A stretch of DNA of 43,789 bases, from contig JAJDZE010000103.1 in assembly GCA_022824805.1 (NCBI GenBank), positions 1 through 43,789 on the forward strand, in the 5' to 3' direction. Position 1 is the stretch's first letter, and each line of letters opens with the position of its first letter. The notes beneath the pieces were generated by a model. It saw only the letters and a list, made by a program, of their open reading frames with translations, did no database searches and was not told where the DNA came from. Source of the DNA: Acidimicrobiia bacterium (GTDB taxonomy: Bacteria; Actinomycetota; Acidimicrobiia; Acidimicrobiales; Poriferisodalaceae). Positions 11,004 to 28,427 of the stretch are shown in pieces. Position numbers and translations under genes: made by a program.

Positions 11004-12092
11004 GTGCCGGACGCTGCCGTCGCGATCCTGCTTGGCCTGCTGCAGGGACTGACCGAGTTCTTCCCCGTTTCGTCGAGTGCCCATCTCGAAGTGGTGCCCT
11101 GGCTGGCCGGCTGGGATCTCTTCGGTGGTGACAATGAGCTGGAAAACGCCTTCGATGTCGCCGTGCACGTCGGCACGCTGGCCGGAGCGGCGCTGTACCT
11201 GCGTGCCGACATCGCCCGCTATGGCGCAGCACTCTGGCGCGGCGTCCGCGGACGTGCCGAGAGCGACACCCGCATTGCGGTAGGTCTGGGTTTGTCGGCG
11301 CTCCCCGCGGCCGTGGTGGGCGTCGCCCTGGAGGATCGCCTGCTCGACCTCGCTGAGCAGCCTCTGCTGATCGCAGCACTGCTGGCCGGCTTCGGCTGGC
11401 TGCTGTGGCGATCTGACGTTGCTGCGCACGCGCGGGGCGCGCAGCGATCCCAAGATTCCTGCCGGGTGCGGGACGCTCTCGGCATGGGCCTCGCGCAAGC
11501 CACAGCGCTGCTCCCGGGAGTCAGCCGCTCGGGAGTGACCATCACGGCAGGTCGGTGGCTCGGTTTCGATCGAGCTGCGGCGGCACGGCTGGCCTTTCTG
11601 ATGAGCCTTCCGCTCATTGCAGGGGCAGGCGCCTATCGCTTTGCGACACTTGGCGATGCTGCACCCACGAGTGCAGAGCTGCAGTTGTTCATCGTCGGGG
11701 GCGTTTCCGCCGCGGTGGCGTCTTGGGCGGGCGTTGCTGCCATGGTGTGGCTGCTTGACCGGACCGATCGCCGCCCGCAGCGCAGCCCGTCGGAGGCTGA
11801 GCCGCCTGGCGAAGCCGTGGCCCGAGCGGCCCGTGAGCGGAGCGAACAAGAGCGGGAAGCAACAGGCGGTGCGACGAGGAGGTTCATCACTTCGCGCAGC
11901 CCGTCGGAGGCTGAGCCGCTTGGCGAAGCCGTGGCTCGAGCGGCCCGTGAGCGGAGCGAACAAGAGCGGGAAGCAACAGGCGGTGCGACGAGGAGGTTCA
12001 TCACTTCGCGCAGCCCGTTCGCGCTGTTCGCCGGCTACCGCCTGGCGCTCGCAGCCGCCGTGGCCGTGGTGGCCATCAGCGGCCTGCGCTAG
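11004..12092 (+). CDS. uppP: Undecaprenyl-diphosphatase with repeat-derived insertion
   Basis: 362 residues from GTG 11004. UppP removes a phosphate from undecaprenyl diphosphate, recycling the lipid carrier for peptidoglycan and polysaccharide. Motifs: GLLQGLTEFFPVSSSAH (11-27) and LPGVSRSGVT (170-179) carry the active-site Glu, Ser, His and Arg. Family members are usually about 270-280 residues. The excess is mainly residues 260-337, two tandem copies of a 38-residue, highly charged unit (key motif ARAARERSEQERE) placed before the last membrane helix (FALFAGYRLALA). A smaller extra piece, HARGAQRSQDSCR, sits near 142-154. The insert carries no stop and keeps the final helix in frame. GTG was chosen because it gives the standard short N-terminus; the PHP stop is 8 bases upstream. 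Confidence 0.94.
   Translation: MPDAAVAILLGLLQGLTEFFPVSSSAHLEVVPWLAGWDLFGGDNELENAFDVAVHVGTLAGAALYLRADIARYGAALWRGVRGRAESDTRIAVGLGLSALPAAVVGVALEDRLLDLAEQPLLIAALLAGFGWLLWRSDVAAHARGAQRSQDSCRVRDALGMGLAQATALLPGVSRSGVTITAGRWLGFDRAAAARLAFLMSLPLIAGAGAYRFATLGDAAPTSAELQLFIVGGVSAAVASWAGVAAMVWLLDRTDRRPQRSPSEAEPPGEAVARAARERSEQEREATGGATRRFITSRSPSEAEPLGEAVARAARERSEQEREATGGATRRFITSRSPFALFAGYRLALAAAVAVVAISGLR
11781..12018. repeat. Two 114-bp tandem units inside uppP plus partial third
   Basis: Unit 1 is 11781-11894, unit 2 is 11895-12008, and ten bases of a third start (CGCAGCCCGT) follow at 12009-12018. The units differ at only a few positions. Each is exactly 38 codons and open in the uppP frame. Within each lies a 40-base core, at 11819-11858 and 11933-11972, containing GAGCGG three times. 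The same core recurs at 12105-12144 and 27155-27194. Confidence 0.95.
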
Positions 12093-12182
12093 AGGCGAAG
12101 CCGCGGCCCGAGCGGCCCGTGAGCGGAGCGAACAAGAGCGGGCAACGAGAGGTGCGACAGCGAAGGGTTCACCGGTTCGCGT
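12093..12182. repeat. Third copy of the dispersed repeat, between uppP and SAF gene
   Basis: The copy starts right after the uppP TAG. Its 40-base core (12105-12144) matches the uppP copies at 39 of 40 positions; the remainder diverges more, with small gaps, up to TTCGCG near 12181. It fills the whole 76-base gap between the two convergent stops and runs into the last codons of the SAF gene on the minus strand. Confidence 0.85.
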
Positions 12183-12792
12183 TGCTGTCGAGCACCACGG
12201 GCACGACGACGCCTGTGGCGCTGGCCCGTGCCACGGGGTCGAGGTGGATCGGCTCAATCTCGACAAGCCATCGATCCCTTGACGCGGCGAGGACGAAGGC
12301 CGGCACCCGAGCTGCATCGGCAGTTCCGGCGGCGGGATCGAACGGATCGATGTCGGCGAAGAGCATCAGCTCGACGGGCGTGCCGGGCTTCACATCGGGG
12401 GCATGGGGCACGACGCTGATGCCGATGCCGCGGCGTCCTGGGCTCACCCCTGATGCGGGATGGAAGTCGAGCTCGGTCAGCAAGGCGCCCTGCGGGACTG
12501 CCCGCGTCAGCTCGCCGAGCTCGAACGCAGTGGTGAGCGCCCCGGCGGGCACGAGATGGGCCGGTACCTCGACGAGATCGACGTGCTCGGTCGGTGAGCT
12601 TCCCACTGCCAGCGAGGTCTGCGCGGCGAGCACTCGCACCGACGTTCCCCATGCGGCTGCAGCCGAACGCGCTCGGCCCGCCGACCCGGCGATCAGCAGC
12701 AGCGCCACGAGCGCGACCACACCGACCGCGGCCCAGTGCACCGCGTTGGGGCGCCGCCGCCAGAAGTCGCTGAGCTGTGAGATGAACGCCAT
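12169..12792 (-). CDS. SAF-domain membrane-anchored protein (CpaB/RcpC-like)
   Basis: 207 residues from ATG 12792. One membrane helix (about 20-38: AVGVVALVALLLIAGSAG) follows a short basic N-terminus, and the rest should lie outside the cell. Residues 49-110 resemble a SAF domain (VRVLAAQTSLAVG, then VEVPAHLVPAGAL and LTRAVPQGALLTELDF). SAF proteins take part in Flp-pilus assembly (CpaB) or bind sugars; no pilus genes are nearby, so the role is open. The last codons and stop lie in a dispersed-repeat copy. It follows the FmdB-like gene by 67 bases, a gap with a strong hairpin. A longer frame reaching 13890 is antisense to other genes and was not used. Confidence 0.75.
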   Translation of the reverse strand: MAFISQLSDFWRRRPNAVHWAAVGVVALVALLLIAGSAGRARSAAAAWGTSVRVLAAQTSLAVGSSPTEHVDLVEVPAHLVPAGALTTAFELGELTRAVPQGALLTELDFHPASGVSPGRRGIGISVVPHAPDVKPGTPVELMLFADIDPFDPAAGTADAARVPAFVLAASRDRWLVEIEPIHLDPVARASATGVVVPVVLDSNANR

Positions 12793-12815
12793 GAGAGCCT
12801 CCGTCGCGAAGCCAT

Positions 12816-12836
12816 CGCAGCGGCGGGGCCGCTGCG
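12816..12836 (-). other. Strong hairpin between fmdB-like gene and SAF gene
   Basis: CGCAGCGGC (12816-12824) and GCCGCTGCG (12828-12836) form a perfect 9-bp stem with a three-base loop. It lies 24 bases before the SAF-gene ATG on the minus strand. It could reduce read-through from the upstream gene, but it has no T-run and its role is unproven. Confidence 0.4.
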
Positions 12837-12859
12837 GGCTTGTCTCGATGCTGGAGGCG

Positions 12860-13237
12860 TCAGCCTGACGCCGAGGCGGCCCCGACGGCTGAGCTCGACG
12901 CGCCGTTCGACGAGCTGCTGTCCGAAGAGGCCGATTCTTTGCTTGCCGAATCGTTGGTCGTGCTTGAGTTCGATGAGTCCGACGAGTCGCTGCCGGAAGC
13001 CCCCGACGTGCTTCGGCCCTCGGACCTGCTGTCGTTCCGGTAGAAGCCGCTGCCCTTGAAGCTGATCCCGACGTTGGAGAACACCTTCCGCACCTCGCCG
13101 CCGCACTCCGGCGCCGACCCGTTGAGCGCTGTGCCCTCTGCCGGCAGAGGGCACACGCTGATGGGATCGTCGGAGAAGCTCTGGTAGCGCTCGAAGGTCT
13201 GGCCGCAGTCGGTACAGCGATACTCGTAGGTCGGCAT
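12860..13237 (-). CDS. FmdB/Ruc-like zinc-ribbon protein with expanded second knuckle
   Basis: 125 residues. The N-terminus MPTYEYRCTDCGQTFERYQS and the block KVFSNVGISFKGSGFYRND define the FmdB regulatory-protein family; the mycobacterial relative Rv0991c (Ruc) is a zinc-binding, redox-controlled chaperone. C8 and C11 form a normal CxxC. The second pair, normally CPxC, is C29 and C45 here, split by 13 extra residues (LPAEGTALNGSAP). That insert overlaps a perfect 24-base palindrome (13131-13154). The C-terminus from about 68 is Ser/Asp/Gly-rich and surely disordered, as in Ruc. It diverges from the UDP-sugar pyrophosphorylase gene, as Rv0991c does from the galU region, with the folate cyclo-ligase gene missing. 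Confidence 0.85.
   Translation of the reverse strand: MPTYEYRCTDCGQTFERYQSFSDDPISVCPLPAEGTALNGSAPECGGEVRKVFSNVGISFKGSGFYRNDSRSEGRSTSGASGSDSSDSSNSSTTNDSASKESASSDSSSSNGASSSAVGAASASG
13125..13158. repeat. Long palindrome within the fmdB-like coding region
   Basis: Positions 13131-13154 are a perfect 24-base palindrome: GTGCCCTCTGCC followed by its reverse complement. With one bulged base the pairing extends to 13125-13158. It falls in the codons between C29 and C45 of the zinc ribbon, at the 13-codon insertion. Confidence 0.9.
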
Positions 13238-13384
13238 GTATTCCCGCCCGGTGTCCCTTGGGGCCAGTCGCTCTGGTCACCTGCGGTGCCCGAGCCGCCG
13301 AGCAGTGTAGCCCTGGGCCGCAGGGGACAGTCTCGAATTCCCGACGACAGTCGTTCGTCTGCCCAGCCTCTAGGTTCTGGCACC

Positions 13385-14533
13385 GTGCTCGCCTCGGACT
13401 TGGCAGACCGGTACGGCATCGACGCATCGGCGGCCGAGACGCTGGCGGCATACGGCTTCGAGCCCGACGTGTTCGACCGGTTGCGCGCCAGGCTCATCGC
13501 AGCTGACGGCTCGGACACCGCAGGTCCGGCGAATCGGGTGCGTGGCAGCATCGAACCCCTGCGGCACGGCGACCTCGTGCCGCTGCCTCCGCCGGGCGCC
13601 GCTGAGCGCGAACAGTTCGCCCGTGCCGGTCGTGAGGCCATCGCCGGCGGGCAGGTGGGTGTGCTGCTGCTGGCCGGCGGCATGGCCACGCGCTTCGGGG
13701 GCGGCGTGAAAGCGCTGGCAGAGGCACTCCCGGGCCTGACGTTTGCTGCCGCCAAGCTGGCCGACCTGCGCCGTGTCGCCGGTGAGCTGGGGTGCACCGT
13801 TCCCCTGTGGCTGATGACCAGCTTCCAGTCCGACGGCGTGCTGCGCGACTGGGCGGCTGCGGCGGCGACGCCCGACGTTCCCATCGACATCGCCCCTCAG
13901 GGCGTGTCGATGCGCCTCACACCCAGCGGCGACGTGTTTCGCGGCGCTGACGGTGCCGTCTCGCTGCACGCCCCGGGGCATGGCGACGCGCCATGGGCCA
14001 TGCAGCGGAGCGGCCACCTGAGCCGGTTCGCAGACGGCGGCGGGCGCTTCCTCTTCGTCACCAACGTCGACAACGCTGCGGCAACACTGGACCCTGCGGT
14101 GATCGGCGCGCACCTTGCCGGGGCGAGACCGCTCACCTGCGAAGTCGTCGAGGGCGATGCTTCGGGAGGCTCTCCGTGGCGTGTGGACGGGCGGCTGCAG
14201 ATCGTGGAGTCGTTTCGCTTGCCGCCTGGCGTCGACCCGGCGGCGCCTGGGGCAGTCAACACGAACTCCCTCGTCGCTGACCTCGAGGTGTTTGCTGCCG
14301 GCTGGCCGTTGACGTGGTTCGAGGTTCACAAGCAGGTCGACGGGGTTGAGGTAGTGCAGTTCGAGCGGCTGATCGGCGAGCTGTCTGCGTTCGCAGACGC
14401 AGCGATGCTGCTCGTGGAGCGCGATGGCCCCGATGGCCGTTTCCAGCCCGTCAAGGATCCAGCGGAGCTCGAGGCGCGCCGCCCCGAGATCGCCCGGATC
14501 CTCTCCGGACGAGGCATCGAGATCGCCAGCTGA
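13385..14533 (+). CDS. UTP-dependent sugar-1-phosphate uridylyltransferase (UDPGP family)
   Basis: 382 residues from GTG 13385; the upstream in-frame codons look non-coding. The nucleotide-binding motif LLLAGGMATRFGGGVKAL sits near residue 100. FVTNVDNAA and the later VEVVQFERLIGEL and PVKD are typical of the UDPGP family, which covers UDP-glucose pyrophosphorylase and the related UDP-GlcNAc enzymes. It should make a UDP-sugar for envelope polysaccharide. By position it corresponds to galU upstream of moeA in mycobacteria, though the mycobacterial GalU is from another nucleotidyltransferase family, so I leave the symbol empty. Glucose versus N-acetylhexosamine cannot be decided by eye. Confidence 0.8.
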   Translation: MLASDLADRYGIDASAAETLAAYGFEPDVFDRLRARLIAADGSDTAGPANRVRGSIEPLRHGDLVPLPPPGAAEREQFARAGREAIAGGQVGVLLLAGGMATRFGGGVKALAEALPGLTFAAAKLADLRRVAGELGCTVPLWLMTSFQSDGVLRDWAAAAATPDVPIDIAPQGVSMRLTPSGDVFRGADGAVSLHAPGHGDAPWAMQRSGHLSRFADGGGRFLFVTNVDNAAATLDPAVIGAHLAGARPLTCEVVEGDASGGSPWRVDGRLQIVESFRLPPGVDPAAPGAVNTNSLVADLEVFAAGWPLTWFEVHKQVDGVEVVQFERLIGELSAFADAAMLLVERDGPDGRFQPVKDPAELEARRPEIARILSGRGIEIAS

Positions 14534-27087: not shown

Positions 27088-27154
27088 GCAATGCCGGCAT
27101 CGCATGCTCCGCCCAGTCCGCCGACCGCCCCGCCCGGAACCCCGCAGCGCCCAG

Positions 27155-27213
27155 GGCCCGAGCGGCCCGTGAGCGGAGCGAACAGGAGCGGGAAATAATG
27201 GCGGTGCTTCGGG
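27155..27213. repeat. Fourth copy of the dispersed repeat, upstream of the SGNH gene
   Basis: The 40-base core at 27155-27194 matches the uppP copies at 39 of 40 positions. After a one-base gap the match resumes with GGCGGTGC at 27200-27207, already inside the SGNH coding region. This copy lies 15 kb from the other three. Confidence 0.85.
27184..27188 (+). promoter_or_regulatory. Ribosome binding site of the SGNH gene, inside the repeat
   Basis: AGGAG lies nine bases before the ATG at 27198, ideal spacing. In the other three repeat copies the same place reads AAGAG, so the one base in which this core differs is what makes the site. Confidence 0.7.
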
Positions 27214-28427
27214 AAGGTGTGCCAGTCAGCGCTGCCACGAGTGCCGCCGACCGCCGCAACGGCATGCCCGCCGGCAAGGTGTTGCTGGCAGGCGCGCTCG
27301 GGCTGGCGCTTGCGATCGTGCTCAACTCGCAGCAGCTGCTGCGCGAGGCCCAGCAGAAGCCGTTCGGCTGGGAACGCGATGTCTCGGTGGCGGCGTGGGA
27401 ACCGGTGGAGGGCGTGGCCAGCGCTGCGGGAGTGCACTTGCCACGTCTGTGGGCCGACGAGGCGCTGGGCCGGGAGGTCCTCGATCCCGGCGAGGTGGAT
27501 CCGTACGGCCCGACCGGCGGCTTCGGCGGCGGCATCGCTCACGAGGCCGGCGGCGACACCGGGGCAGCCGATCCGGTCCGTGCCGCTGCCGTGGTCGCCG
27601 AACCGTCGGGAACCGGCACGGCCGCCAGCGGAGATCAGCAGCAGAACTCGGGCGGCGCGGGTGATGCAGCCACCGGAGCCTCCGCCACCACCATGCCGCG
27701 GTTCCCGCCGCCGGGTGAGCAGCAGATCTCGAACGGTGCCGACGAGGCCGCCACGGTGCCGTGGTTCCCGACGCCCGCCGACCCGCTGCAGCTGCACATC
27801 ATGGGCGATTCCATGGTGCGGTTCTTCGGCGATGTGATGGTGAGCTTGGCCGACGACACCGGCGTCATCGAGGCCTCCGCGGAGCATCAGCTCTCCAGCG
27901 GCCTGAGCCGACCCGATTTCTACGACTGGCCGACCCGCATCGTGGAAGTCCTGGCAGCCGAGGACCCCGACGCAGTCGTGCTGATGTTCGGCGGCAACGA
28001 CGCACAGGCGATCGTCGTGGACGGCCAGATCGCACGCCGCTTCTCTGATGCCTGGGTGCAGGAATACTCGGCGCGAGTCGGCCATGTCATGGACCTGGTG
28101 ACCACCGATGCTGACCGGGTGTTGATCTGGGTCGGCCAGCCGATCATGGAGGACCCCGAATACGACTCCCGCATGCAGGGAGTCAACGAAGTCTTCGCGG
28201 CCGAAGCCGCCAAGCGCGACCGGGTGCACTACGTGGACACGAGGGATCTGTTCCGGGGGCCCAATGGCGGCTTCAGCCGCTACGTGGCCGACGCCGATGG
28301 GCAGCTCTCCGATGTGCGGCTCACCGACGGCGTCCACCTCAGCACCGTCGGCGGTCGTTGGCTGTCACAGGTGCTGCTGGACGAACTCGGACTCTTCGTC
28401 GACCTGACCTCGGGCGCTCAGTCGTGA
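27198..28427 (+). CDS. SGNH-hydrolase-like membrane-anchored protein, MBOAT partner
   Basis: 409 residues from ATG 27198. One helix (about 27-43, KVLLAGALGLALAIVLN) anchors it, with most of the protein outside. A long Gly/Ala/Pro-rich linker runs from about 100 to 195. The SGNH (DUF459-like) domain follows: HIMGDSMVRFFGD (Ser 205), VLMFGGNDAQAI and LTDGVHLSTVGGRW hold the Ser, Gly, Asn and Asp/His blocks. With the MBOAT protein upstream (110-base gap) it makes a two-part surface O-acylation system of the AlgI/AlgJ or PatA/PatB type. The target polymer is unknown. Its first codons and ribosome site come from a dispersed-repeat copy. Confidence 0.85.
   Translation: MAVLREGVPVSAATSAADRRNGMPAGKVLLAGALGLALAIVLNSQQLLREAQQKPFGWERDVSVAAWEPVEGVASAAGVHLPRLWADEALGREVLDPGEVDPYGPTGGFGGGIAHEAGGDTGAADPVRAAAVVAEPSGTGTAASGDQQQNSGGAGDAATGASATTMPRFPPPGEQQISNGADEAATVPWFPTPADPLQLHIMGDSMVRFFGDVMVSLADDTGVIEASAEHQLSSGLSRPDFYDWPTRIVEVLAAEDPDAVVLMFGGNDAQAIVVDGQIARRFSDAWVQEYSARVGHVMDLVTTDADRVLIWVGQPIMEDPEYDSRMQGVNEVFAAEAAKRDRVHYVDTRDLFRGPNGGFSRYVADADGQLSDVRLTDGVHLSTVGGRWLSQVLLDELGLFVDLTSGAQS

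Follow-up and report, generated by a model that had tools for sequence, protein, structure and literature searches.

A short dispersed repeat of Acidimicrobiia, found as two tandem in-frame copies in uppP and probably mobile

The gene for undecaprenyl-diphosphate phosphatase, uppP, in a member of an uncultured Acidimicrobiia group contains an insert of 228 bp, i.e. two tandem units of 114 bp, which is free of stop codons and in frame with UppP. The insert probably represents two tandem copies of a dispersed, mobile and non-autonomous repeat, here named the EAEP element after the peptide that it encodes, which adds about 114 bp per insertion and is tolerated in one sense frame. The same short repeat is dispersed to dozens of places in genomes of this group. 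The window, i.e. the whole stretch of 43,789 nucleotides that was analysed, is contig C111 of the source genome G000 (3.69 Mb, 211 contigs, 92.5% complete), which was compared with ten congeners, G001–G010, giving 11 genomes of the genus. The features are listed in Table 1.

Table 1. Features of uppP, its insert and the other element copies of the window
Feature	Coordinates	Strand	Remarks
uppP with insert (undecaprenyl-diphosphate phosphatase, BacA/UppP family)	11004..12092	+	362 codons plus stop; Pfam BacA
Host target sequence GCGCAGCCCGT, left copy	11780..11790	+	once in the empty uppP of L178, L181 and L183
Element copy 1 in uppP	11791..11893	+	constant 5' half to about 11858, variable 3' half beyond
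Duplicated target sequence between both copies	11894..11904	+	11-mer GCGCAGCCCGT again
Element copy 2 in uppP, tandem duplicate	11905..12007	+	units 98% alike
Duplicated target sequence, right copy	12008..12018	+	11-mer GCGCAGCCCGT; 'ten bases of a third unit' in the sequence-only reading
5'-truncated copy directly 3' of the uppP stop codon	12094..12181	+	copy at the same place in G001, G002, G005, G006
Fourth copy, 5'-truncated, between two genes	27153..27240 (ends approximate)	+	core 27165-27192, one mismatch

The identity of the host protein is given by its match to Pfam BacA (E 3.6e-60), while the NCBIfam UppP models match below their cut-offs, and residues 1–262 share 90% protein identity with the congeners. 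The last hydrophobic segment of the protein, FALFAGYRLALAAAVAVVAISGLR, is still in frame 3' of the insert. Tandem Repeats Finder, run on the window, reported 11780–12018 with a period of 114, 2.1 copies, 98% matches and a score of 464, which agrees with the sequence-only reading that two tandem 114-bp units without a stop had entered the gene in frame with retention of the last helix; GAGCGG, which it had counted three times, is indeed seen three times in the first unit. It had also described ten bases of a third unit; trailing bases are present, but there are 11 of them and they are a duplicate of the host sequence. This 11-mer occurs three times in the uppP studied here and once in each of the empty genes named in Table 1. 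The sequence-only reading had called uppP essential; PAP2-type phosphatases can, however, stand in for UppP.

A 24-base core of the element, searched with up to three mismatches and with the reversed pattern as a control, was found at 62 places in G000 (29 forward, 33 reverse), the control giving 0. Among 61 relatives, the core was present in all 11 genomes of the genus, at 15–71 places each, in 0 of 26 other genomes of the same family and in two of 24 genomes from other families, at 3 and 1 places. A wider sample of 395 genomes drawn from the class contained ten carriers, namely the window's own genome, seven of family f29 and two with one place each. This second family of the order carries the core abundantly: in genus g46 four of five genomes have 20–49 places, in g90 all three have 2, 64 and 120, and in g63 it occurs in 0 of 3. 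Counts in eight individual genomes were 1, 2, 16, 63, 258, 69, 172 and 131 core places, the count of 258, in the 2.7-Mb genome G447 (record set JAGWAO, L061), being the highest seen. The titles of 116 core-sharing stretches read Acidimicrobiia, Acidimicrobiaceae, Acidimicrobiales or Microthrixaceae, plus one 'bacterium' and one Alphaproteobacteria. Such a patchy distribution suggests transfer between families or repeated loss. The copy labelled Alphaproteobacteria (L170:4119-4228) is the sole match in its genome, and when its contig was compared with the pool of loci the element alone matched; it may stem from a misbinned contig or from real transfer. The stem of this copy has G-C pairs on both sides in place of the tandem G-A mismatch. 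An origin from phages or plasmids was rejected, as the exact core pattern was in 0 viral contigs and the phage and plasmid collections gave no match at E 1e-5.

Congeners differ in whether an orthologous site carries the element. When the joined flanks of 21 G000 copies were used as queries against the ten congeners, 19 yielded a measurable empty site, L003 and L009 giving none. Net gain was 111–115 bp at 14 of these 19 sites, in coding and non-coding DNA alike, and exactly 114 bp at seven (L002, L006, L008, L011, L013, L018, L020); the remaining five differ, with 72 bp at L005, 53 or 106 at L014, 69 at L016, 106 or 92 at L019 and 101 or 74 at L025. In uppP the flanks of the insert are contiguous in the aligned genes of 10/10 congeners. 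There, as at L008, L013 and L017, the matches of all ten congeners span the empty join, which makes a gain in G000 more parsimonious than ten losses. The target duplication is exact at two sites, with 11 bp in uppP and 12 bp at L004, and imperfect or absent elsewhere. No fixed duplication length emerged from 57 query copies; a spanning match was obtained for 30, and some of these matches are the tandem copies themselves. At the L004 site, G000 and G007 hold differing copies whose 3' halves agree at 29 of 42 positions, which hints at a preferred target. By eye, several targets look like an element end, the 3' end in uppP and the 5' end at L004. Isolated 5' ends (RGAGGCTGAGCC) number 84 in G000 against 4 in the reversed control, and at 21 of 52 distinct sites they are without the usual core nearby, some having a longer core. 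Several 'empty' congener sites carry such an end exactly at the insertion place (L006, L008 and L022; less clearly L005 and L011), and element-free congener loci have one, of the form (A/G)GAGGC(C/T)..., where G000 is full (L231, L234, L267, L268, L221, L222). These isolated ends may be remnants or targets.

The presence of empty orthologs in every congener leaves next to no room for the idea that the insert is an old, lineage-specific domain of UppP. An in-frame, stop-free segment is what that idea has in its favour, but the insert is also missing from all 21 other UppP proteins of the protein alignment and the same sequence stands at dozens of unrelated places, and the idea was rejected; the sequence-only reading, which had favoured a spreading repeat over an old domain, is upheld by the 62 core places and the 10/10 empty genes. 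It is also quite unlikely that the second unit is an error in the assembly of this metagenome-assembled genome. Short tandem units within an assembly of 211 contigs invite that suspicion; against it, the two units differ (98% match) and tandem copies at other spacings exist in several genomes. A single unit in place of two would not change the main conclusion. Core arrays in tandem at spacings of 45 and 57 bp, both multiples of three, are seen in G000 at L358 (C172), L370 (C163) and L382 (C94), and similar spacings recur in other genomes.

Copies inside protein genes were sought with a codon model whose frame assignment was correct for 480 of 507 test windows. At a strict setting, nine of 206 copies were flanked by coding sequence on either side, seven of them in sense orientation, all in the EAEP frame, and two antisense (L008, L304); a looser setting gave 15 frames, of which ten were sense in the EAEP frame, two sense in another frame and three antisense. 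Eight loci were accepted: UppP, PolA (L016), L020, L045, ScpA (L060), acetoacetate-CoA ligase (L135), a PGI/PMI-like protein (L169) and CtaC (L013), the last added by hand. Left out were L286 (an ortholog of L020), L141 (a poor element match) and L027 (an uncertain start), together with L133, L159, L006, L163 and L304, which were judged, not proven, to be spurious, masked, intergenic or weakly coding, L133 and L159 being the masked cases. In the accepted loci, the choice of which involved judgement, 8/8 copies are sense and read in one frame, EAEPxGEAVARAARERSEQERE; counted without selection, the EAEP-frame share of in-gene copies is 11/16. Of 48 non-coding copies, 33 are open in the EAEP frame and 20, 2, 37, 39 and 34 in the other five, so openness alone predicts about 20% EAEP and eight of eight would have a chance of 0.2^8 = 2.6e-6. 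When the codon model is applied to the element itself, none of the six frames scores as coding. Of the peptides that could be made, probably only the charged, helix-prone EAEP peptide is tolerated in genes.

Pfam and NCBIfam support six of the eight loci, L020 and L045 having no family match. Empty orthologs were found for UppP, PolA, CtaC and one protein without family assignment. PolA has 69 bp inserted in G000 and G007, absent in G001, G009 and G010; CtaC has 114 bp in its signal region, where five of the ten congeners whose matches span the join were aligned at protein level; and the protein without assignment has gained 114 bp, i.e. 38 residues, in G000, G002 and G009, a gain absent in G004, G005, G006 and G010. 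For ScpA, acetoacetate-CoA ligase and the PGI/PMI-like protein the element lies inside the family match, which is the basis for these three.

Genes are the rarer location. Among 56 full-length copies with 300-nt flanks, whose gene status was set by a codon-score test, six are in genes, all in sense, and 50 are outside. A sense gene ends between -60 and +40 nt from the element 5' end in 29 of these 50, an antisense gene ends at the element 3' side in 16, eight have both and 13 neither; sense-only outnumber antisense-only gene ends by 21 to 8 (p 0.024). The 3' end of the copy directly behind uppP provides the stop codon and last residues of a convergent gene (ORF 12169–13890, minus strand). This copy is present in G000 and in the four congeners named in Table 1, and absent in G003, G004, G007, G008, G009 and G010; the congeners without it include those closest to G000 in UppP, and this patchy presence, in five genomes with and six without, requires repeated insertion or loss to be invoked there. 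The start codon of ORF 27198–28427 sits inside the fourth copy. MIRU repeats of mycobacteria, also an actinobacterial lineage, are short and sit at gene boundaries, and by this general description the EAEP element is like them.

The element consists of two unlike halves. An alignment of 36 copies shows 94% identity over the 66 bp of the 5' side and 56% over the 3' part. The second of the predicted hairpin loops of the 5' part has a 9-base form in 164 of 194 copies and a 23–24-base form in 13; in the long-core copies L300, L304, L307, L317, L319 and L322 a hairpin-like segment of 23–24 bases replaces the short loop and shifts the frame behind it. Most pairs of the predicted 5' stems never vary, so that covariation lends them almost no support. 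Imperfect terminal inverted repeats of about 20 bp are clear in L115, L021 and L307; most of the 64 copies that have a 5' end show them weakly or not at all. No covariation between the two ends was detected, 241 of 2000 swaps reaching the observed value. Folded as DNA, L115 has a z of -1.92 and L300 of -0.75. The uppP copy, with a z of 1.68, folds no better than shuffles; the earlier statement that the unit is not palindromic thus holds for uppP, but has to be qualified by the terminal repeats of some sister copies. In 12 orthologous pairs from 8 sites, matching positions amount to 772/792 in the 5' half, 465/504 in the 3' half and 3385/3666 in the flanks. The 5' half therefore drifts more slowly than the flanks (20/792 versus 281/3666 changed, p 1e-8; with one pair per site 13/528 versus 158/2444, p 1e-4), and the 3' half keeps pace with the flanks (p 0.93).

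Non-orthologous copies do not share their 3' halves. In 154 such pairs whose 5' halves are at least 97% identical (235 distinct copies), 3'-half identity has a median of 0.52 and a maximum of 0.83; the tandem pair in uppP is an exception, with identical 3' halves and a 5' identity of 0.97 that falls below the pair cut-off. For the insertions found in G000 only (L008, L013, L017, L022) no donor with a matching tail was found, the best reaching 0.71–0.83, and since all 62 G000 core places are within the compared loci, any donor with a good core would be expected among them. It is conceivable, if rather improbable, that each insertion joins the constant 66-bp module to a 42-bp tail made anew, which would give each protein a constant charged helix followed by a new variable peptide. 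Conservation of the 5' half continues after insertion, however, so gene conversion or selection acting over old lineages could give the same picture. Because there is weak lineage structure (nearest-neighbour identity 0.727 versus 0.704 when shuffled, reached by 0 of 200) and one pair, L003 and L021, reaches 0.90, it is likelier that the 5' halves are homogenised by gene conversion or held by selection while old tails diverge than that tails are renewed at insertion.

What maintains and what moves the element are questions on which two further readings bear. The constant 5' half might be a structured RNA or DNA module that is selected at gene ends because it binds a protein or acts in mRNA stability or termination, a role suggested for REP or MIRU repeats; the copies within genes would then be accidents. 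The sense gene ends beside 29 of 50 non-genic copies, the slow change of the 5' half after insertion and the position of its variable columns (13–16 and 49–50) in predicted hairpin loops all speak for this. Against it, covariation in the predicted stems is almost nil (term -0.15; a double change in 1 of 18 pairs), no Rfam match appears at E up to 1, the uppP copy lacks unusual folding, and the reading would explain maintenance, not spread; we regard it as possible but doubtful. A known RNA family was rejected on the same Rfam search, which covered window positions 11700–12250. Far less probable is a REP-type repeat moved by a RAYT/IS200-type (Y1) transposase: the element is hairpin-rich, dispersed and often located behind genes, as this reading would have it, but PF01797 is in 0 of 11 genomes of the genus while 5 of 14 control genomes are positive, and RAYT mobilisation was rejected on this ground. 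Not one of the nine PF01609 loci of G000, eight of them over the cut-off, carries the two ends of the element; at L348 a single stretch matches the element 3' end at 14/17, against 11 when shuffled. Of the 27 ORFs listed next to 12 loci that have isolated 5' ends, 20 were examined and include no fitting autonomous element. A mobilising enzyme was thus not found among the PF01797 and PF01609 matches and the ORFs beside isolated 5' ends.

A mobile, non-autonomous element tolerated in one frame remains the preferred explanation, and its course may be pictured as follows. One insertion would add about 114 bp, i.e. 38 codons with the duplication of host sequence included, presumably by transposition in trans, and would bring a 5' part that is open in the EAEP frame. 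Insertions into genes in this sense frame would add to a surface loop a segment that is charged and rich in alanine, and be tolerated, while those in other frames would be lost, tolerance then being the likely cause of the frame bias, and most copies would survive at gene ends beside stop codons. In uppP, one copy would have entered at GCGCAGCCCGT and duplicated 11 bp, and would then have been doubled in tandem, probably by recombination or slippage.

In-frame insertion of selfish repeats into conserved proteins has been documented mainly for Rickettsia and Wolbachia. Judged by description, the EAEP element appears to work like the in-frame palindromic elements of Rickettsia, in another phylum. 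The Rickettsia palindromic elements (RPE; Ogata et al. 2000, 2002, via PMC10969869, PMC3767692, PMC4316617) are described as dispersed sequences of about 100–150 bp that enter ORFs, including those of housekeeping genes, without destroying the frame. Both kinds of element thus have this size, lie in unrelated existing ORFs without breaking them and vary in presence between related genomes, and the likeness to RPE drawn by the sequence-only reading is supported; but 50 of the 56 full-length EAEP copies lie outside genes and, compared by description, the element also differs in its host group and phylum, its imperfect terminal repeats and its constant and variable halves. RPE sites in R. japonica are largely shared among orthologs, according to PMC3767692, whereas EAEP sites are polymorphic. 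The palindromic elements of Wolbachia and the coding palindromes of Methanocaldococcus jannaschii, as described in PMC2996958, are in-frame coding repeats in housekeeping genes as well, and by description differ in their organisms. The same paper presents PARCEL (palindromic amphipathic repeat coding elements) as palindromic DNA of patchy occurrence that encodes an amphipathic segment and forms tandem domains of its own membrane proteins, whereas the EAEP element enters existing housekeeping proteins.

MITEs offer a further comparison. QMITE1 and QMITE2 of Coxiella belong to this class, and are described (PMC5896051; review PMC10969869) as small and non-autonomous, with dozens of copies, often at gene 3' ends and some in frame. 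The EAEP element is like them in all these respects, and unlike MITEs in that no parent insertion sequence was found (among the PF01609 loci and the ORFs at 12 loci) and that its terminal repeats and target duplications are inconsistent. The review regards the same in-frame route as conceivable in other prokaryotes (PMC10969869). Literature searches on Acidimicrobiia combined with sponge symbionts and repetitive elements or with miniature inverted-repeats, and on 'repeated palindromic element', found no paper, although a description of the element elsewhere is possible.

With the EAEP element, in-frame insertion of a repeat is now known from another phylum, and close relatives provide the empty sites. 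The net size of 38 codons and the single tolerated frame make the cost of an insertion testable in native ortholog pairs, and the pattern of a constant 5' and a variable 3' half may be the trace of an unusual process of copying or homogenisation in these bacteria.
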